Shown here in pieces: positions 24,278 to 43,096 of a DNA stretch of 64,000 bases. The position numbers were made by a program, and so were the translations under genes. This stretch comes from Candidatus Anstonellales archaeon (lineage in GTDB: Archaea; Micrarchaeota; Micrarchaeia; Anstonellales; CG1-02-47-40), in assembly GCA_038869735.1 (NCBI GenBank), contig JAWCQO010000002.1, positions 62,001 through 126,000 of the forward strand. Reading direction: 5' to 3'. A model generated the notes under the pieces. The model did not search any database and had not been told where the DNA came from. It worked only from the letters and a program-made list of their open reading frames with translations. How positions within the stretch are numbered: the stretch's first letter is position 1; each line of letters opens with the position of its first letter.

Positions 24278-26221
24278 ATGGTGCATTATTCCCTTCGCTC
24301 TGACTTCAAACCAACCGGAGACCAGCCAAAGGCAATAGAAGAGTTGGTTAGGGGACTTGATGGAAGAAGTAAACAAACTCTCCTTGGAGTAACTGGCTCT
24401 GGAAAAACGTTTACAATTGCAAACGTAGCCTATCGAACAAATCGTAGCATGCTTGTCATCTCACACAATAAAACTCTCGCTGCCCAACTCTATTCTGAAT
24501 TTAAAGGGTTCTTTCCAAAAAATAAGGTAGGTTATTTTGTCTCCTACTATGATTACTATCAACCGGAGAGCTATATCCCGCAAACGGATACTTACATCGA
24601 AAAGGACGCAAAGATAAATGAAAAAATAGAAAGAATGAGGCTAAATGCAACGGCTCATCTCATGACTGAAGGGCCGAGCATCATAGTTGCTACGGTTTCC
24701 TGTATTTATGGCATCGGCTCTCCGGATGAGTGGAGAAAAATGAGTTTAGCTCTAAAAGTGGGACAGGACACACCAAGAAGTTCACTTATTGCTCGACTTA
24801 TTGCGATGCAATACGAGCGAAATGATATCGCTCTTGCTCCTGGTAAATTTAGGGTCCAGGGAGAAACAATTGATATCATTCCAGGCTACTCTGACGAAAT
24901 CGTGCGGTTATCACTTAACGACGGAACAATTGAAAGAATTTCCATCCTCGACCCTCTCAATATGAATGTTATTCAAAGACAATCGGACATTCTTCTTTTT
25001 CCAGCCAAACATTACCTGGTGCCAGAATCTGCAAAAGAGCGAGCACTTCGTGAAATTGAACTTGAGCTGGAGCAGCGCCTTCCAGAACTTGATGAACTTT
25101 GCGCTCATCGATTGCGCACCCGCACAAAATATGATATTGAACTAATACGGGAGATGGGGTACTGTAACGGAATTGAGAACTATTCACGCCATTTTGACGG
25201 AAGAAGCCCCGGTCAACCTCCATATACTCTGCTTGACTTCCTCCCTAAGGACGCAATAATAGTTATAGATGAATCCCACGTCACTATACCTCAACTTCAT
25301 GGAATGTTCAGAGGAGACAAAACGAGAAAGAAAAACCTAGTGGATTACGGATTTAGGCTCCCTTCAGCATATGATAATCGGCCGCTCAAGTTTGAGGAGT
25401 TTGAAGAAAAGGTTTCTAATCACGACTTAATCTTCGTTTCCGCAACCCCGGGTGAGTATGAGAAGAGCCACTCCTCCCAGATAGTTGAGCAACTTGTTCG
25501 ACCAACCGGCCTCCTAGACCCTTATGTTGAGGTGAGAGGCACCCACAACCAAATAGAAGACCTCATCCACGAAATTAAATTAAGGAGAGATAGAGACGAG
25601 CGCGTATTGGTAACGACACTTACAAAAAGGATGGCTGAAGATTTATCAGAGAGACTTATCCAAGCCGGAATTCGCGCAAGATACATGCATTCAGAAATAG
25701 AAACATTAAAGAGAAATCAACTTATAAGACAGCTGAGATTAGGCGAATTCGACTGTATTGTAGGAATAAACCTCCTGCGTGAGGGATTGGATATTCCTGA
25801 GGTGAGCCTCGTTGCTATTCTCGATGCTGACAAAGAGGGATTCCTCAGAAACGAGACAAGTCTTATCCAGACCATTGGAAGAGCTGCGAGGAATGTAAAT
25901 GGAACTGCCATAATGTATGCAGAGAAAAAAACGCCAGCCATCTTGGCAGCAGTTCTTGAAACTAATCGGAGAAGGCGAGTGCAAGAAGAATACAACAAAA
26001 AGAATAATATTGTTCCAAGGAGCATTGTAAAAGATATCCCTGTACAGATAACGATTGAGTTTGAAGAGAAAGAAAGAAGAGTAAGCAGAGCTGAGATAAA
26101 ACGTCAGATAATCATCCTAGAAGAAAAGATGAACGAAGCGGCAGAAAGGCTTGATTTTGAAGAAGCAATAGACCTCCGAGATAAGATAACAGAACTCAAA
26201 AGAAAAATGGCAAGGATGTAA
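24278..26221 (+). CDS. uvrB: Excinuclease ABC subunit B
   Basis: 647 aa helicase-like damage-verification subunit. N-terminal GDQPKAIEELVRGL and Walker A GVTGSGKTFTIAN, the beta-hairpin FVSYYDYYQPESYIPQTDTYIEKDA (split: YYDYYQPE, YIPQTDTYIEKDA) that inserts into damaged DNA, DESH box VIDESHVTIPQL, motif VI QTIGRAARN. The C-terminal UVR helix pair (about 605-647) that binds UvrC is intact. UvrABC is a bacterial system found in some archaea after transfer, so this cluster is a likely horizontal acquisition. uvrA starts 59 nt after it. Confidence 0.97.
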   Translation: MVHYSLRSDFKPTGDQPKAIEELVRGLDGRSKQTLLGVTGSGKTFTIANVAYRTNRSMLVISHNKTLAAQLYSEFKGFFPKNKVGYFVSYYDYYQPESYIPQTDTYIEKDAKINEKIERMRLNATAHLMTEGPSIIVATVSCIYGIGSPDEWRKMSLALKVGQDTPRSSLIARLIAMQYERNDIALAPGKFRVQGETIDIIPGYSDEIVRLSLNDGTIERISILDPLNMNVIQRQSDILLFPAKHYLVPESAKERALREIELELEQRLPELDELCAHRLRTRTKYDIELIREMGYCNGIENYSRHFDGRSPGQPPYTLLDFLPKDAIIVIDESHVTIPQLHGMFRGDKTRKKNLVDYGFRLPSAYDNRPLKFEEFEEKVSNHDLIFVSATPGEYEKSHSSQIVEQLVRPTGLLDPYVEVRGTHNQIEDLIHEIKLRRDRDERVLVTTLTKRMAEDLSERLIQAGIRARYMHSEIETLKRNQLIRQLRLGEFDCIVGINLLREGLDIPEVSLVAILDADKEGFLRNETSLIQTIGRAARNVNGTAIMYAEKKTPAILAAVLETNRRRRVQEEYNKKNNIVPRSIVKDIPVQITIEFEEKERRVSRAEIKRQIIILEEKMNEAAERLDFEEAIDLRDKITELKRKMARM

Positions 26222-26280
26222 AAGCAACCAACAAATAATTACGTTTATGTAATCTTTAGTAAGTTTAAAGGCGAGTTTAG

Positions 26281-29100
26281 ATGCAGCAAGACAAGATAAT
26301 CATAAAAGGTGCAAGAGAGCACAATCTCAAAAATATAAACCTCGAAATCCCACGCAATTCCTTAACTGTCATTACAGGAATTTCTGGGAGTGGAAAAAGC
26401 ACACTGGCATTTGATACTATTTATGCAGAGGGTCAAAGAAGATACGTTGAATCTCTATCCTCTTATGCTCGTCAATTTCTTGGTATAATGTCAAAGCCTG
26501 ATGTGGATTCTATAGAGGGTCTCTCCCCAGCAATTTCAATAGAGCAAAAGTCTCCCCCCTCCAATCCTCGTTCAACGGTTGGGACGATTACTGAGATTTA
26601 CGATTATCTACGTCTTTTGTATGCAAGAATTGGAGAGCCTTACTGCTCCAAGTGTGAAAAGAAAATCACAATACAAACAACAGATGCCATCACAGACGTT
26701 ATCCTTTTTTCCTATTCTGGAAAGAAGGTCGAAATCCTCGCTCCAGTTGTAAGAGGGAAGAAAGGAGTCCACGAGAAAATCTTTGAAAGAATCTCACAGA
26801 TTGGTTTTGAGAAAGTAAGAGTTGACGGCGTAATTATTGATGTAGGGACAATCCTCCCCAACTTAGACAAAAACAAAAAGCACAACATAGAAATAGTTGT
26901 AGACAAGGTTGCATCGAACCCTGAAGAGAGAGGGCGACTATTTGAAGCTGTTCAAAAAGCACTTCTATATGGAAGCGGACTGGTAATAGTAAAAGCAGGA
27001 GATGAGGAGAAGCTTTTTTCCCAAAAAAATTCTTGTCCGGATTGCGGGGTATCCATCGGTGAGTTAGAACCGCGTACTTTTTCATTCAATTCGCCATACG
27101 GCGCATGCGAGGAGTGCCATGGCCTTGGAGTAAAAATGGAATTTGACCCAGAACTTGTTTTGGATTTTGATAAATCTATTGCGGACGGTGGAATAGTGGC
27201 TTGGAAATCAAACATAGCAAGTATTAGAAGCGGGATGCTTGAAACAGTTGGAAAGAAATACGGATTTGACCTCTTTACACCTCTTGGACAGATGTCAAAG
27301 CAACAGATAGACATTATATTATGGGGCAGCGATGAGATTTTCCACTACAAATTGCGCTCGCGCACTGGTAGCACCGTACACGAGTTTGACGGTTCATTCG
27401 AAGGTGTTATCCCCAATCTTGAGCGTCTATATCGAGAGACAAAGTCAGAGTGGAGAAGAGAGGAAATCAGAAAGTTTATGCGAGAAAGAACATGTCCTGC
27501 TTGCCAAGGAAAAAGACTCAAAAAAGAAGCTTTATATGTAAAAATTCAAGGAAAATCAATAATTGACCTTTGCGAACTTCCAATAAGCGACTGCTACAAG
27601 TTTATCTCTTCTCTCACTCTTTATGGAAGCCAAAAGATAATTGCTGAACCAGTCCTCAAAGAGATAAAAAGCCGCCTTGAGTTTCTTATAAACGTTGGAG
27701 TTTCATACCTCACTCTCTCAAGGACGTCCGACACACTTTCTGGAGGAGAGATGCAAAGAATACGCCTTGCTACGCAGATAGGTTCAAACCTAACCGGCGT
27801 AATCTATGTTCTGGATGAACCAACAGTCGGTCTCCATCAGCGCGACAACGAAAGACTCATATCTACTCTCAAATCCATCAGAGAGATGGGAAACACGTTG
27901 ATAGTAGTTGAGCACGATGAAGAATGCATAAAAAATGCCGATTACATAATTGACCTTGGTCCCGGCGCAGGAGAAAATGGCGGGAGAGTGATGTTTGCAG
28001 GCTCACCCGAGGGAATTGGAGAACGCTCAGAATCGATAACAGGGCAGTATCTTTCAAAGCGCCTCTTCATTCCAATACCAAAAAAGAGAAGAAAAAGCAC
28101 GAAGTTCCTAAAAATTAAAGGATGTCTTGAGAATAATCTAAAAAATATTGACGTGTCTTTTCCTCTTGGAACGTTTATCTGCATTACTGGCGTTTCCGGA
28201 AGCGGAAAATCAACTCTAATCATTGAAACACTATACAAAGGTTTGGCTCAGAAAATATACGGCAAGAAGGAGAGACCAGGAAAGTTCTCCGGTTTTGAGG
28301 GCCTTGACTACATAGACAAAGTTGTAATCATCGACCAAACACCAATCGGCAGAACACCAAGAAGCAACCCCGCGACTTATACTGGCGTATTCACTCCGAT
28401 AAGAGAGCTGTTTGCAATGACTCCAAGTGCAAGGATGAAAGGTTATTTAGCAGGAAAATTTTCATTCAATGTGCAAGGAGGAAGATGTGAGAAGTGTGAA
28501 GGTGGAGGAGTGGTTAGAATAGAGATGAACTTTCTTCCAGATATTTATGTTCCTTGCGAGGAATGCGGTGGCAAAAGATACAACCAAGAGGCTCTTTCGG
28601 TTACATATAAGGAAAAAAATATAGCAGATGTTCTTGAAATGAGTGTAGATGAAGCATATCAGTTTTTTCAAAACATCCCCAGAATACAAAATAAATTATC
28701 ATCCCTTAGAGATGTCGGTCTTGGATATATAAAGCTTGGACAACCAGCTACAACCCTTTCAGGAGGTGAAGCTCAAAGGGTCAAGCTCTCTTACGAACTA
28801 TCAAAAAGACCTACGGGAAGAACCGTTTACATCCTTGATGAACCAACAATTGGGCTTCACTTTGATGATGTAGCAAAGCTTCTGGATGTCCTCGTGCGCC
28901 TTGTAGAAAAGGAAAACACCGTAATTGTCATAGAACACAATTTAGATGTGATAAAGACAGCAGATTACATAATAGACCTTGGTCCGGAAGGAGGAGAGGC
29001 AGGGGGAGAGATTGTTGCAACAGGAACTCCCGAGGAGATTGCCAAAAACAATAAAAGCTATACTGGCCAGTATCTAAAAAGAATTTTGCAGGAAAATTAA
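26281..29100 (+). CDS. uvrA: Excinuclease ABC subunit A
   Basis: 939 aa, standard length. Two ABC ATPase modules: Walker A GISGSGKST near residue 33 and GVSGSGKST near 640, with signature LSGGEMQRIRLA near 487 and LSGGEAQRVKLS near 830. The zinc modules carry CxxC pairs: CSKCEKK, CPDCG, CEECHG, CPACQGKR, CEKCEGGG and CEECGGKRY. The zinc finger after the second Walker A contacts DNA damage. UvrA scans DNA and loads UvrB. The gene lies between uvrB and a VIT transporter. No clear Shine-Dalgarno; AAAGGCGAG lies 7 nt before the ATG. Confidence 0.97.
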   Translation: MQQDKIIIKGAREHNLKNINLEIPRNSLTVITGISGSGKSTLAFDTIYAEGQRRYVESLSSYARQFLGIMSKPDVDSIEGLSPAISIEQKSPPSNPRSTVGTITEIYDYLRLLYARIGEPYCSKCEKKITIQTTDAITDVILFSYSGKKVEILAPVVRGKKGVHEKIFERISQIGFEKVRVDGVIIDVGTILPNLDKNKKHNIEIVVDKVASNPEERGRLFEAVQKALLYGSGLVIVKAGDEEKLFSQKNSCPDCGVSIGELEPRTFSFNSPYGACEECHGLGVKMEFDPELVLDFDKSIADGGIVAWKSNIASIRSGMLETVGKKYGFDLFTPLGQMSKQQIDIILWGSDEIFHYKLRSRTGSTVHEFDGSFEGVIPNLERLYRETKSEWRREEIRKFMRERTCPACQGKRLKKEALYVKIQGKSIIDLCELPISDCYKFISSLTLYGSQKIIAEPVLKEIKSRLEFLINVGVSYLTLSRTSDTLSGGEMQRIRLATQIGSNLTGVIYVLDEPTVGLHQRDNERLISTLKSIREMGNTLIVVEHDEECIKNADYIIDLGPGAGENGGRVMFAGSPEGIGERSESITGQYLSKRLFIPIPKKRRKSTKFLKIKGCLENNLKNIDVSFPLGTFICITGVSGSGKSTLIIETLYKGLAQKIYGKKERPGKFSGFEGLDYIDKVVIIDQTPIGRTPRSNPATYTGVFTPIRELFAMTPSARMKGYLAGKFSFNVQGGRCEKCEGGGVVRIEMNFLPDIYVPCEECGGKRYNQEALSVTYKEKNIADVLEMSVDEAYQFFQNIPRIQNKLSSLRDVGLGYIKLGQPATTLSGGEAQRVKLSYELSKRPTGRTVYILDEPTIGLHFDDVAKLLDVLVRLVEKENTVIVIEHNLDVIKTADYIIDLGPEGGEAGGEIVATGTPEEIAKNNKSYTGQYLKRILQEN

Positions 29101-29115
29101 TCTTGCCCTGAAGCC

Positions 29116-29130
29116 TGCCAAAAAATGGCA
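29116..29130 (+). other. Short inverted repeat after uvrA
   Basis: TGCCA and TGGCA flank a five-A loop 16 nt after the uvrA stop. This is a small hairpin without a T-run and could be an mRNA 3' end structure. A TATA-like GGTATAAAAAG follows at 29174-29184. Confidence 0.3.
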
Positions 29131-29187
29131 CGAAGGGCCGGTTAAAAGGTTAACTGCCTAAAAAGTTTTGCGGGGTATAAAAAGTAT

Positions 29188-29925
29188 ATGGGTAGTCTTA
29201 CAGCAATCACAAAGAAACACATGGAAGAGGAGGACGAATCAAACAAAGGGGGACTACTGCGTCAAATAATACTAGGAGGTCAGGACGGCCTCGTTAACGT
29301 TTTTGGTATAGTCCTCGGAGTCGCTACGGCAACCGAAAATCCACAGCTTGTTATAATAGCAGGATTAGCTGCGACTCTTGCTGAGTCCCTTTCGATGGCC
29401 GCTGTTGCATACACTTCCTCACGAGCTGAGGAAGACCACTACAAAAAGATGCTTGAAGTTGAAAAATGGGAGATCGAGAATCTCCCCGACATAGAAAAAG
29501 AGGAGATTAGGATAATCTACCGCAAAAAGGGCTTTAAGGGGAAAGATTTGGAGAAGATAGCTGACATTATCACCTCTGACAAAAATCTTTGGTTACAGGT
29601 AATGATGCAAGAAGAGCTGGGTTTCTCTGATATTCAGAAAATAAATCCTCCGCGTGAAGGAGTTGTTGTTGGATTGTCAGCGTTTTTTGGCTCCCTTATT
29701 CCTCTCTTCCCATTTTTATTATCGCCATCGTATTTCACACCAAGCATAGCATTCTGGGTATCTATTTTGTTTTCCTTGTTTGTCTTATTTGTAGCAGGAG
29801 TAATAAAAGGCAAGCTAACAACAGGCAGGCTACTCCATGATGGACTTGAAATGATGCTTATAGGCGGTATTGCAGGAATAGCGGGGTATAGTGTGGGTGC
29901 CGTTTTGGGAGTAGCTGGGTTTTGA
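29188..29925 (+). CDS. VIT1/CCC1 family iron or manganese transporter
   Basis: 245 aa. It begins with a soluble stretch, then GGQDGLVNVFGIVLGVATA (family signature of TM1) and LAATLAESLSMAAVAYTSS. A central metal-binding helical hairpin rich in Glu follows (EEIRIIYRKKGF, MMQEELGF). Three C-terminal helices end the protein. VIT/CCC1 proteins export Fe2+ or Mn2+ from the cytosol by H+ exchange. TATA-like GTATAAAAAG is only 5-14 nt before ATG 29188, so translation may start at ATG 29221 instead, 11 codons in. It sits inside the uvr island, where iron or manganese handling could relate to oxidative damage. Confidence 0.9.
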   Translation: MGSLTAITKKHMEEEDESNKGGLLRQIILGGQDGLVNVFGIVLGVATATENPQLVIIAGLAATLAESLSMAAVAYTSSRAEEDHYKKMLEVEKWEIENLPDIEKEEIRIIYRKKGFKGKDLEKIADIITSDKNLWLQVMMQEELGFSDIQKINPPREGVVVGLSAFFGSLIPLFPFLLSPSYFTPSIAFWVSILFSLFVLFVAGVIKGKLTTGRLLHDGLEMMLIGGIAGIAGYSVGAVLGVAGF

Positions 29926-30003
29926 ATCTTTACTCTTTTATACGCCTACGCAAAAATATTATTGGATGCTGTTAATTTTTTCTTTAGGCCTTGGTGATAC
30001 TCA

Positions 30004-31611
30004 ATGTTAGATATATCCAAGATAACTCTTCCTTCCCTGCCAGGCTGCTATCTATTCAAAGATAAAAAAGGAACCGTTCTTTACGTAGGAAAGGCAAGAA
30101 ATCTAAAAAAGCGAGTCAAGAGCTATTTTTCACGCAAGTGCGACAATAAAACCGCAACTCTTTTGGAAGAAAGCGCAAGCGTTGACTTCATCATCACAGA
30201 CAATGAGGTTGAGGCTCTGCTTCTTGAAAACAGCCTTATCAAACGCTACTTCCCCAAATTTAATACCGAGTTGAAGAGTTCTGAAAAGTTTACATATATC
30301 GTTATAACAAAAGAAAAGTTTCCACGGCTTCTCCTCAGCAGAAGGATTAGAAGCCGGTTTGCACCCAATGGGAGATGGTATGGCCCCTTCGCGCGAGGTT
30401 CTGCGCGCATTTTAGTTGCGGATACGCTCAGAAAAGCGTTCGGAGTCAGAATCTGCAAAAGATTGCCAAAAAAAGCTTGCCTTCAGTACTATCTTGGAAA
30501 CTGTACAGCTCCATGCGAGGAAAAGATAAGCGAAGAGGACTACCTCAAGCGTATATCAATATTGGAATCTGTGCTTACAGGGGAAGGCGAATCCTTTAAC
30601 AAGATACTTGAAACTATGCGAAGCGAGATGAAGAAAGAATCAGACAAGAAAAACTTTGAAAGGGCAATGACTCTAAGGGATAGCATACGACTACTTGAAG
30701 GCCTTTCCCAGAAACAGAAGATTGAACGCAAAAAGGCAGGAAGCGAAGACTACATCTCATATATTTCAGTGAACGGAAAAGTAACTCTCCAAATATTTAA
30801 AGTGATAGAAGGGGTAATCCGCGACAGAGAACGATTTTTCTTTGAGGCAAGAGAAGGAGAGGAACTGGAAGAATTCCTAAGCAACTATTACGAAAGAGAC
30901 AACACTCCAGACGCAATCTATTTAGAAAACAAATTTGAGGGTATTGACGCAATGGAAAAGTATCTGACAAAAAAGGCCGGAAGGCAAGTTAGACTATTAG
31001 TACCAAAAAAAGGAGAGAAACTAGATATACTAAATCTCCTTAAAAAAAATGTGGAAGCCGAAGTAACAGGAAAAACCAATCCTGCGCTTCTTACACTCCA
31101 AAAGGCACTAAAGCTCCGCGAAATTCCACGGGTTATCGATTGCTTTGATATATCTACTCTCTTTGGTAAGGATTCCGTAGGGAGCGTTGTTCGTTTTGTT
31201 AATGGAAAACCAGAGAAATCATCATATAGACGCTTTAAAATACGCTTTGCAGGTGAAGGGGGAACCAAACAAGACGACCCAAATATGATAGGTGAAATAA
31301 TCTTTAGACGGTATAAGCGGTTAATGGAGGAAAATGCTCAAATGCCAAACCTTGTCCTGATAGATGGCGGCACATCGCAACTTAAAAGAGCAATGGAAGC
31401 TCTCTCTCGTCTTCGCACGGATATAGACTGCATCTCGCTTGCAAAAGGAGAGGAAGCTATATACTCTCCTAACTTTCCTCAAACAATAAAGCTTGGTAAG
31501 AACAACGAAGGCTTAAAAATCCTCATCTACGCTCGGGATGAGGCTCACAGATTTGGTTTATCCTACCACCGCGCTTTGAGACGAAAAGCCGTTAAACCAC
31601 ATATTTATTGA
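30004..31611 (+). CDS. uvrC: Excinuclease ABC subunit C, lacking the C-terminal HhH domain
   Basis: 535 aa dual-incision nuclease. The N-terminal GIY-YIG nuclease runs LPGCYLFKDKKGTVLYVGKARNLKKRV, a Cys block PKKACLQYYLGNCTAPC follows, and the UVR helix (about 200-235) binds UvrB. The RNase H-like C-terminal nuclease has DCFDISTLFGKDSVGS and ends with RDEAHRFGLSYHRALRRK. Bacterial UvrC continues with a tandem helix-hairpin-helix domain of about 60-70 residues, but here a stop follows within 8 residues of that motif. The 5' incision in bacteria depends on that DNA-binding domain, so another factor may replace it. GGTGATACTC precedes the ATG. Confidence 0.95.
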   Translation: MLDISKITLPSLPGCYLFKDKKGTVLYVGKARNLKKRVKSYFSRKCDNKTATLLEESASVDFIITDNEVEALLLENSLIKRYFPKFNTELKSSEKFTYIVITKEKFPRLLLSRRIRSRFAPNGRWYGPFARGSARILVADTLRKAFGVRICKRLPKKACLQYYLGNCTAPCEEKISEEDYLKRISILESVLTGEGESFNKILETMRSEMKKESDKKNFERAMTLRDSIRLLEGLSQKQKIERKKAGSEDYISYISVNGKVTLQIFKVIEGVIRDRERFFFEAREGEELEEFLSNYYERDNTPDAIYLENKFEGIDAMEKYLTKKAGRQVRLLVPKKGEKLDILNLLKKNVEAEVTGKTNPALLTLQKALKLREIPRVIDCFDISTLFGKDSVGSVVRFVNGKPEKSSYRRFKIRFAGEGGTKQDDPNMIGEIIFRRYKRLMEENAQMPNLVLIDGGTSQLKRAMEALSRLRTDIDCISLAKGEEAIYSPNFPQTIKLGKNNEGLKILIYARDEAHRFGLSYHRALRRKAVKPHIY

Positions 31612-40380: not shown

Positions 40381-41361
40381 TTACACCATCCAGAAATTTA
40401 CCCCAAAAATCTCGCCTCCGAATGCCCTCGAGAGCTGAATAACCGCAAACGCTGAAATTAAAAAGCCAAAGAATGGCATAATAATGTTCTGCATAGTAAG
40501 AAGAGAAAGCAATGCTGAGTATTTTGCAAAAATCTCAGCAACCCTATCAACAAACTTTTCGCTTCTTAATCTGTCTATTTGATGTCTTATGTTTGCGCCA
40601 TCAGATAAATCAACTGATGCTATAGCCCCAAAATCCGCATGAAAGTCTGAAAGTGTACTTGAGAGCCCCTCGTACGCTATCCATCCATCAGATTCTAATG
40701 ACAATGAAAGATAGATTGAAAGAGGAAAAAATATGTAGGCTCCAATCGCAAGTCCAATGAACGCTCCCCCTATTTTTCTTGTTGCAAAGAATGAACGAAA
40801 GAATATCCCAATAGGAAAAAGAAGAGAGAGTGCGTATTTAGATAAAAAATCAACAATCAAATATTGAATATTCGTAGCCACCATAATGATCAGAAGATAA
40901 AACTGTATAAGCCACAGATTGGTTGCCGAAGATTCAAGGGAAAAAAACGGCTGCGCTGAAACAGAACCAAAAGTAAACGAGAGTTTAGAAACAAATCCTA
41001 TTATGTTGGTTGTAACTGCACTCGACTGCATAAGCGCTGAGAGCTGGCTATAAACTTTGTTAAGGCTACAAAGAGACGTTGCAAGTATAGACGCATCTCC
41101 AAGACAACCATCAAAAAGAAGCCCTGGAGGTACACTCTCCTTTCCTAGCGAATCTATTATGGTGGTAATCGTAAATGCCCCTCCAACAAGAGCTCCATTT
41201 ATTATCGACTGAAAGAGCTCCTCAAAACCAAAAGCGCTTAGGCGCTTTGACGAAAACGCCTTCCCTAAGCCTATCAAAATACCGGAAATTATTATCGATA
41301 TCAGAACTAGCGTTGAAGCAATAGCATAGCTTGCTCTTGCAAAGCTTTCATCCACTATCAT
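40381..41361 (-). CDS. Polytopic membrane protein, candidate VirB6/CedA-like channel subunit
   Basis: 326 aa. About six membrane helices: near 13-33, 52-70, 153-173, 176-198, 203-230 and 297-320. A large outside-type loop from about 72 to 150 holds two Cys (CLGDASILATSLC) that could form a disulfide, and a second charged loop runs 235-295. It is the last gene of a three-gene run behind a pilin-like 81 aa protein. In type IV secretion and in the Ced DNA-import system of Sulfolobales a polytopic VirB6/CedA protein is encoded beside the pilin-like VirB2/CedA1. That makes a channel role plausible. No direct sequence match can be claimed. Confidence 0.6.
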   Translation of the reverse strand: MIVDESFARASYAIASTLVLISIIISGILIGLGKAFSSKRLSAFGFEELFQSIINGALVGGAFTITTIIDSLGKESVPPGLLFDGCLGDASILATSLCSLNKVYSQLSALMQSSAVTTNIIGFVSKLSFTFGSVSAQPFFSLESSATNLWLIQFYLLIIMVATNIQYLIVDFLSKYALSLLFPIGIFFRSFFATRKIGGAFIGLAIGAYIFFPLSIYLSLSLESDGWIAYEGLSSTLSDFHADFGAIASVDLSDGANIRHQIDRLRSEKFVDRVAEIFAKYSALLSLLTMQNIIMPFFGFLISAFAVIQLSRAFGGEIFGVNFWMV

Positions 41362-41381
41362 AAGCCTCGAGTCGGTTTGAG

Positions 41382-41627
41382 CTATTGAAGTAGTTTAAGC
41401 GAAGTGTCCCGTATAATAACCGCAGCCCCAAGTATAGCTGCAACAATAATGCCGCCGACAATCATCCCAATTGCAACGCTCTGCCACCTTCCTTTGACTT
41501 CGGACGGTTGAGTTTGTGCAACGCCGTATACTATACCTCCAAGCACAATAAGTATAAGCGATATTACAGGTCCGATGTTAGTAAGAGTGGCCTGTATTCC
41601 AGCAAGAAGCGTTTCTATATATGCCAT
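41382..41627 (-). CDS. TrbC/VirB2/CedA1-like pilin candidate
   Basis: 81 aa. Two hydrophobic helices (about 17-36 and 50-72) are joined by a short polar loop QPSEVKGRWQ with Lys/Arg. The second helix is Gly/Ala/Ile-rich (AIGMIVGGIIVAAILGAAVII). This is the architecture of VirB2/TrbC conjugation pilins and of archaeal CedA1, without a cleavable class III signal peptide. AGGAGGT lies 6 nt before the ATG, the strongest ribosome site of the three-gene run, as expected for a protein made in high copy number. The gene starts 5 nt after the 180 aa membrane protein. The assignment rests on size and topology, not on alignment. Confidence 0.6.
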   Translation of the reverse strand: MAYIETLLAGIQATLTNIGPVISLILIVLGGIVYGVAQTQPSEVKGRWQSVAIGMIVGGIIVAAILGAAVIIRDTSLKLLQ

Positions 41628-41632
41628 TTTTC

Positions 41633-42175
41633 TTACCTCCTAACCAAAAATACAAACATCAGTGCTCCAGCCGCAGCAAAGATAGCAGAACCTATTGACA
41701 ACAAACCACCCAACATTATACTTGAAATTACTGCGATTACCAAGACATCAGTGGTTGCATTTATATTATTGTAAACATCAATCGCTATTGTAATAAAGAT
41801 ACCAATTGCAGAACCAAAAAGGCCACATATAGCACCCGTAAAGGCATTTACGCCTCTCTCCATTACTCGTCCCTCCAAATTTCTAAGTACAAAAGCAGAG
41901 ATCATACCCCCAAGAAAAGATGCTACGCAGATTGCAGGAAACAAAATCCACGAGTAGACTCTTAATTCTGAAACTCTTATAAGTGAAACGGTCAGCTTCA
42001 CAATATGAAATGCCACTATTATTGAGCTGCCCATTCCGGCAGCAAGTAAAATATTTGTTATTGGCCACATTTTTGCAGAAGGAGTATCCATTGCAACCTG
42101 ACTGATACCATAATCGGGTGACCCTTCTTCTTTTCTTTTTTGCGAAGGAGGCATAATTCCTTTACTCTCTGACAT
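41633..42175 (-). CDS. Four-helix membrane protein, first gene of the pilin-like cassette
   Basis: 180 aa, not recognised. A 35-residue soluble N-terminus rich in Ser/Lys/Pro is followed by four hydrophobic segments: about 42-64, 76-97, 110-132 and 142-175. Two Gly-rich helices contain GAICGLFGSAIGIF and IMLGGLLSIGSAIF. The stop is 5 nt from the pilin-like gene, so these are one operon. Accessory membrane proteins of this size occur beside CedA/CedA1 in Sulfolobales, but the similarity here is only in context. A dyad TTGAG-T-CTCAA lies 22-32 nt upstream (42197-42207). Confidence 0.6.
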   Translation of the reverse strand: MSESKGIMPPSQKRKEEGSPDYGISQVAMDTPSAKMWPITNILLAAGMGSSIIVAFHIVKLTVSLIRVSELRVYSWILFPAICVASFLGGMISAFVLRNLEGRVMERGVNAFTGAICGLFGSAIGIFITIAIDVYNNINATTDVLVIAVISSIMLGGLLSIGSAIFAAAGALMFVFLVRR

Positions 42176-42250
42176 TTTTTAAATGTAATGTAGGTCTTGA
42201 GTCTCAAAAACAATACAGCTTTTAAGCAATCTCAAATTAGTTATATTACA

Positions 42251-43096
42251 ATGGCAAAGGATGAGAAAACGATTGTTGAGCTAGATGCATCAAAAAGCGC
42301 TCAAGAAAATGCTTCAACTTATTTTGAGATGGCAAAAAAGGCAAAAGTAAAACTTTCTAGAGTAAAGGCCGCCCTTGCTCAGAGTATCCTTGAACTTGAG
42401 AAACTAAAATCAGAAAAGCAAAAAGATAGGGGGTCCAATAGCTTAAGGGATTCTTCATCCCAACTTCTAAGTCTCTTTAGTATAAAAAGAAAGAAAGAAT
42501 GGTTTGAGCAATTTCACTTCTTTGTCACTCCTCAAAAAAAACTCGTAATTGCCGGAAGAAGCAGTAAGCAAAACGACCTAATCTATTCGAAATATATAGA
42601 AGACAACGACCTTTTTTTTCACGCAGATATCCAAGGAGCTCCCGCAACGGTACTAAAAAATGGGCTGCATGCCGATAATCCAGAAAAGCTCCTTAGTGCT
42701 CAGTTTGCGGCTTCTTATTCTTCTGCTTGGAAGGTAGGAGCAGCAAGTGTAGATGTCTATGCAGTAAGAAAAAATCAACTTTCAAAGCACTCACATGGAG
42801 GATTTATTCCCAAGGGTGGCTTTGCAATCACCGGAGAACGGGAGTGGTTTAGAAAAATCCCTCTGGGTTTAAAACTGTATGTTGATGAAAAAGGAATTCC
42901 ACGAGTAGTTCCTGAAAAAATGAATTTAATGCACAACTCAGTTCTAATCTATCCTAGGGGAAAAGATGACAAGCAGGAAGCTGCAAAAAAGATTGCTAAA
43001 GCACTCTCTTGCGATAAGGAAGAAATACTTTTACTTCTGCCTTCTGGAAAGTTTAGGGTAATTTCAGAATTTACCGATAAAGGAGCGAGGGGCTAA
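42251..43096 (+). CDS. Stand-alone NFACT-R (DUF814) domain protein
   Basis: 281 aa from ATG 42251, with TTTTAA about 26 nt upstream. A coiled-coil helix region (residues 1-70, ending AQSILELEKLKSE) is followed by the NFACT-R RNA-binding domain: KKEWFEQFHFFVT, KLVIAGRSSKQNDLIYSKY, NDLFFHADIQGAPATVLKN and the GGFIPKGGFAITGEREWF block. Full archaeal RqcH/NEMF proteins are about 650 aa with NFACT-N, HhH and CC-M domains before this. Those are absent. In bacteria and archaea RqcH marks stalled nascent chains on split 50S subunits, and Pelota and ABCE1 are encoded 7 kb away. No frameshifted remnant of the missing half is seen upstream. Confidence 0.85.
   Translation: MAKDEKTIVELDASKSAQENASTYFEMAKKAKVKLSRVKAALAQSILELEKLKSEKQKDRGSNSLRDSSSQLLSLFSIKRKKEWFEQFHFFVTPQKKLVIAGRSSKQNDLIYSKYIEDNDLFFHADIQGAPATVLKNGLHADNPEKLLSAQFAASYSSAWKVGAASVDVYAVRKNQLSKHSHGGFIPKGGFAITGEREWFRKIPLGLKLYVDEKGIPRVVPEKMNLMHNSVLIYPRGKDDKQEAAKKIAKALSCDKEEILLLLPSGKFRVISEFTDKGARG

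Follow-up and report, generated by a model that had tools for sequence, protein, structure and literature searches.

A probable Ced/Ted-type minimal T4SS operon in the chromosomes of Micrarchaeota

We analyzed a 64-kb stretch of DNA from a Candidatus Anstonellales archaeon (the window) and found that three of its genes, A, B, and C, likely encode the membrane components of a domesticated T4SS that is carried in the chromosome and belongs to the minimal Ced/Ted type, with DNA cargo as a working assumption. Taken alone and whatever its cargo, the T4SS-like machine is very likely. DNA import or exchange seems, on balance, its likeliest use. The original prediction of a Ced-type pilus core stands as far as the machine is concerned, given the pilin profile matches of B, the weak matches between C paralogues and CedA, and the presence of a motor in the operon. 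By analogy with Ced, the cargo would be DNA in single-stranded form, acquired from other cells or traded with them. It is probable that these symbiont-like archaea assemble a machine for moving DNA, or some other cargo, from cell to cell.

Gene content and conservation of the operon

The three genes are tightly linked on the minus strand, with open reading frames exactly where they had been predicted (Table 1) and intergenic gaps of 5 bases (A to B) and 20 bases (B to C). The genes around the cassette are housekeeping genes, and we take the two flanking genes, named by eye, to be ileS and a divergent DUF814/NFACT-like gene. As the original prediction had noted, the strongest Shine-Dalgarno sequence of the set precedes B, and neither A nor C has an equal. 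It had also read this strength as the sign of a polymerizing subunit. Most B relatives do not have a strong Shine-Dalgarno sequence, and we rejected it as a pilin mark because it is not conserved among them. The source genome comprises 884 kb in 15 contigs. No tRNA genes were found in the window (positions 1-64000). Elsewhere in the window (24278-31611), UvrA-, UvrB-, and UvrC-like genes, also named by eye, lie close together.

Table 1. Coordinates of the cassette and adjoining features in the window
Feature	Position	Strand	Evidence
A, 180-aa membrane accessory protein, 4-5 TM	41633..42175	-	ORF; relatives by iterative profile
B, 81-aa two-helix protein, VirB2/CedA1-like pilin candidate	41382..41627	-	ORF, AlphaFold2, profiles
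C, 326-aa polytopic membrane protein, VirB6/CedA-like channel candidate	40381..41361	-	ORF, linkage, paralogue CedA matches
Shine-Dalgarno sequence of B, AGGAGGT	41635..41641	-	7 bases before B ATG
Divergent neighbor gene of the cassette	42197..43096	+	Same gene beside B in 13/34 B loci

Across 84 genomes of the order, strong B matches occur in 65 and tabulated C matches in 67. In many relatives and genera, B and C belong to an operon, B-C-D-E-F, with fixed gene order and strand and with genes that often touch or overlap. In 29 genomes B is the gene immediately 5' of C, in 36 genomes C is found 5' of E at a distance of up to 6.5 kb, and in 15 all three are so arranged; no B-C or C-E pair was found in another order or orientation. 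The chance expectation is <0.3 genomes. The linkage count includes a small selection effect, in that some second E matches were listed because they are near C. The original prediction had proposed looking in relatives for an ATPase of the VirB4/HerA kind next to these genes, and E is such an ATPase. Neither of the two observations that it had named as evidence against itself turned up, namely a confident structural match of B to another small membrane family or conservation of A-B-C in genomes that have no VirB4/HerA-like ATPase.

In the source genome, B-C is unlinked from D-E-F, which is found on another contig (C5:49679-52662), with D 5' of E and F 3' of E. The detached D-E-F site, with the same neighbors, is common to the source genome and a family mate, indicating that the two parts separated long ago and that no assembly break is involved. 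In families f1, f3, f6, and f7, the divergent neighbor listed in Table 1 is kept beside B, so that the cassette in the window occupies the ancestral site. When we searched the source genome with the PF03432 relaxase profile, there was no match, and the genome has no true VirD4, the sole match being a 42-position fragment in a 3,271-aa giant protein. No DNA-processing genes are linked to the operon in the maps examined, and the operon holds no effector-like genes.

B as a candidate pilin

The predicted two-helix architecture of B was confirmed by AlphaFold2, for which B and C were modeled on alignments of their relatives: B forms a hairpin of helices 2-37 and 42-80 joined by a short loop (pLDDT 90). 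The second helix is Gly/Ala/Ile-rich as predicted, with a G/A/I content of 55%. Across 31 relatives, B is 46 to 81% identical, with a mean column identity of 62% and a well-conserved QPxExRGKWQ in the loop region; this conservation is far beyond chance. No signal peptide is evident. A contig scan with the B profile yielded 37 loci, assigned to Candidatus Micrarchaeota, Candidatus ainarchaeum, or uncultured archaeon, the closest of which (81% identity) belongs to Candidatus Micrarchaeota archaeon CG1_02_47_40. Proteins related to B were detected in 248 of 301 genomes of the phylum; outside the order they occur mostly in frames longer than B.

Profile searches with the B family point tentatively to pilins. 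PF18895 (T4SS_pilin) was matched by 27 of 32 members (best E value 1.2e-5), NF045849 (pilin-like conjugal protein) by 9/32 (4.2e-6), and the TrbC/VirB2 profile by 6/32 (1e-6). The next Pfam family by member number was well behind the pilin profiles (7/32, best 0.012). Alone, the window B scored 16.0 bits in the VirB2/TrbC/T4SS_pilin comparison, below the cutoff of 26.6, and when A, B, and C were each searched as single sequences against Pfam and NCBIfam, nothing exceeded the cutoff. In hhalign comparisons, B aligned in register with TrwL of R388, if weakly, and gave negative results with single Sulfolobus plasmid sequences. Foldseek was uninformative for the plain hairpin fold, and a PDB sequence search with the B profile gave no relevant match. 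Two other candidates were rejected: a match to amyloid-beta in the PDB, which is a GxxxG-type transmembrane chance match, and matches to T7SS EssA, which involve at most 10/32 members with E values of 0.002 or higher and cover one helix only. B is a candidate pilin of the VirB2/CedA1 kind that would polymerize into a filament.

The motor genes D and E and the adjoining F

The original prediction had placed the motor ATPase outside the window, and a DUF87 search located a VirB4/CedB-type ATPase, E, on the D-E-F contig. E has 499 aa, D has 258 aa with two TM helices, and F has 238 aa with a coiled coil and a possible winged helix. The best NCBIfam matches of E are CedB (8.8e-25), VirB4 CD1110 (4e-21), CedD (1.5e-19), and TraC (2.5e-18), all of them sub-equivalog, with CedB at 87.4 bits against a cutoff of 700; E also matches TIGR00929 (1.3e-14). 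In a profile-profile comparison, hhalign further aligned E with ATPases from a set of Sulfolobus plasmids that includes several conjugative ones (98.9%, 1.2e-17).

D matches no Pfam family, and its commonest match is CedB (12/32 members, best 2.5e-5). Because D covers CedB positions 9-219 and E covers positions 251-536, D and E together correspond to one CedB/VirB4 protein split in two genes. This split bears on the two-part build of VirB4, as proposed for CedB plus CedD. Comparison of D with Sulfolobus plasmid ATPases by hhalign was negative, and a PDB sequence search with the D profile gave no relevant match; its two sub-0.001 matches were rejected because they are designed repeat proteins. 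At two places in other genomes (L104:2055-5132 in G047, and G064:C76), the E frame is approximately 1,000 aa long and has a putative intein-like insertion near Walker A.

C as a candidate channel and A as an accessory protein

C had been described as a six-helix protein; we counted five to six hydrophobic stretches in C and its nearest relatives. The AlphaFold2 model is an all-helical membrane protein (pLDDT 91, pTM 0.85), and residues C86, C98, R189, T194, R195, and G198 are invariant. C had no significant match in Pfam or in the PDB, where a match to WRB/CAMLG was weak. One C-family member matches CedA at 0.005, and the best CedA profile match in the source genome is a C paralogue (E = 5e-5). 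Across the order, the CedA profile matched in 43 of 84 genomes at E ≤ 1, mainly C paralogues and none over the cutoff; at this threshold the profile also rings in B. subtilis, so single weak matches count little. Foldseek returned no significant match for C. The second hit by E value, which is also the best biologically related one, is a chain of the R388 T4SS (8rtd, probability 0.80); this entry contains TrwI/VirB6, and the matched chain is only putatively TrwI. Comparisons of C with single VirB6, R388, and Sulfolobus plasmid sequences by hhalign were negative. C is a candidate VirB6/CedA-like channel, with linkage to the ATPase gene in 36 genomes and weak homology by sequence and by fold.

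For A, described as a four-helix protein, we found four to five hydrophobic stretches. It is limited to families f1 and f2, where an iterative profile search gave 12 distinct homologues located just upstream of B or C. A is a lineage-specific accessory without a known counterpart.

Assembled from these assignments, the machine would work as follows. As a two-helix hairpin, B would first insert into the membrane, to be extracted from there into a thin helical pilus, with C at the pilus base as the VirB6/CedA-like channel. The motor would be a split VirB4/CedB, in which D supplies the membrane hairpin and N-terminal domain and E the ATPase domain, and F may be a cytosolic partner of this D-E motor.

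Comparison with known systems

A pilin, a channel, and a VirB4-type motor form the minimal set common to Ced and Ted (PMC9905601, PMC11868833). This composition, together with the lack of a PF03432 relaxase and VirD4 and of an evident signal peptide in B, leads to the reading of a domesticated T4SS. The Ced system of Sulfolobales (CedA, CedA1, CedA2, and CedB, with CedD and CedE), which imports DNA and is induced by DNA damage, resembles the set proposed here in that it has a pilin without a long signal peptide, a VirB6-like channel, and a CedB/VirB4-type ATPase with which D plus E is collinear, and it is chromosomal with no relaxase reported. CedA1 and B are also alike in having no evident signal peptide. 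In contrast to Ced, the Micrarchaeota operon has an ATPase split in two genes, an extra gene F, and the lineage-specific A, and its similarity is at profile level only, below all equivalog cutoffs. The Ted system of Thermoproteales (TedA, TedC, and TedB) is also chromosomal, and its three components, a pilin, a VirB6-like protein, and a VirB4-like protein, make up a minimal set like the one proposed here (PMC9905601). However, the TedC signal sequence is cleaved, whereas B has no evident one, and no ParA, Rad50, or HerA gene lies beside the Micrarchaeota operon in the maps examined.

The T4SS of Patescibacteria, also a small-genome and mostly epibiotic lineage, mostly has no relaxase and includes VirB4, VirB3, VirB6, VirB2-like pilins, and pilin arrays (PMC12102498). 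It differs in being bacterial, with an MPF-FATA-related VirB4, TrsD, and other components, whereas the Micrarchaeota ATPase is archaeal and CedB-like. Conjugative plasmids of Sulfolobus (pNOB8, pKEF9, and pING1) encode an ATPase domain homologous to E; unlike the operon, they are plasmid-borne, and C and B are matched neither by their membrane proteins of approximately 600 aa nor by their small ones.

A location outside Sulfolobales, to which the original prediction had drawn attention, has precedents in Ted of Thermoproteales and in the pilus of A. pernix (PMC9905601). In our judgment, Ced, Ted, Sulfolobus conjugation, and the Patescibacteria T4SS constitute what is already known, and the variant operon in Micrarchaeota is new. 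DPANN archaea are unmentioned in a 2025 T4SS review (PMC12857230), and our search of openly available papers turned up no description of the operon in Micrarchaeota or DPANN. With this operon, domesticated T4SSs of the Ced/Ted type would reach into DPANN, and the pili or filamentous connections that microscopy has shown would gain concrete candidate genes. It bears on the means by which DPANN archaea pass material to and from other cells, DNA import included. Kept through most of a Micrarchaeota order without a recognized relaxase, it also makes the parallel with the essential Patescibacteria T4SS testable.

Alternative explanations

The same machine could carry another cargo, serving host or partner contact and the exchange of proteins, metabolites, or signals, as in the T4SS of Saccharibacteria. 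Micrarchaeota have small genomes, and those DPANN that are known depend on life on a host (PMC11329633); in Patescibacteria, one strain cannot grow epibiotically unless it has the comparable, mostly relaxase-less T4SS with VirB2-like pilins (PMC12102498). The missing PF03432 relaxase fits such a role, and the presence of another, paralogous set that contains arrays of pilins and VirB6-like proteins (see below) argues for surface roles. On the other hand, the best named profile for the E ATPase is that of the DNA-import motor CedB, the composition is the minimal Ced/Ted set, and effector-like genes are absent from the operon. We consider this alternative possible but somewhat improbable.

Two further explanations leave less room. 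The homology of E to ATPases of Sulfolobus conjugative plasmids would fit a mobile conjugative element or its remnant, which we disfavor as highly unlikely: the operon occurs in most of the order with housekeeping genes as neighbors, the same divergent neighbor recurs in four families, the ATPase tree groups largely by family (with long-branch exceptions), and neither 72,556 plasmids, searched for relatives of B and C, nor viral contigs, searched for B, encode any. The operon is a chromosomal one and probably domesticated. It is just as improbable that B and C are unrelated membrane proteins, such as a transporter, whose link to the ATPase is coincidental. C alone has no significant match and B folds as a plain hairpin, as such a coincidence would allow, but a fixed five-gene order in many genera far exceeds the chance expectation, pilin profiles match B, and the CedA profile matches C paralogues. 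The Ced/Ted-type reading remains the one that we prefer.

A second, paralogous set and giant proteins

Contig C1 of the source genome (L183:5015-11239) carries a paralogous ATPase pair, D2-E2, with other partner genes. D2-E2 pairs were present in 10 of the 10 relatives checked, and the E2 sequences form one clade (100/100), whereas the surrounding E sequences do not form a single clade. There are also several TrbC-like pilins with signal peptides, one of them as a tandem pair (C2:247-450, C2:58647-58829, and C11:4306-4491). Two tandem arrays, each of six paralogues of gene C, lie at L178:8139-14771 and L179:4223-18699 (contigs C4 and C5 of the source genome), and one array in this genome ends in a 1,431-aa lipoprotein-like gene. 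VirB6-like arrays of C paralogues, which are approximately 280 to 834 aa long, also occur at L181 and L182, and three of the four arrays (L178, L179, L181, and L182) end in a giant lipoprotein-like gene of 1,281 to 1,640 aa.

It is possible, though somewhat less likely than not, that the chromosomes of Micrarchaeota encode two conjugation-type machines that arose by an ancient duplication. The minimal one, the operon with the split motor, would serve to take up or exchange DNA; the elaborated one, which has giant lipoproteins and arrays of pilins and VirB6-like proteins, would serve contact with other cells. If true, the two machines would be the archaeal counterpart of the essential Patescibacteria T4SS.

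A HerA/VirB4-like ATPase domain is also found within the 3,271-aa frame of the source genome (C6:8782-9192, L002). This frame is reminiscent of the giant SPEARE-type proteins of nanohaloarchaea, in which VirB4-like ATPases occur in and next to giant proteins (PMC10266531).
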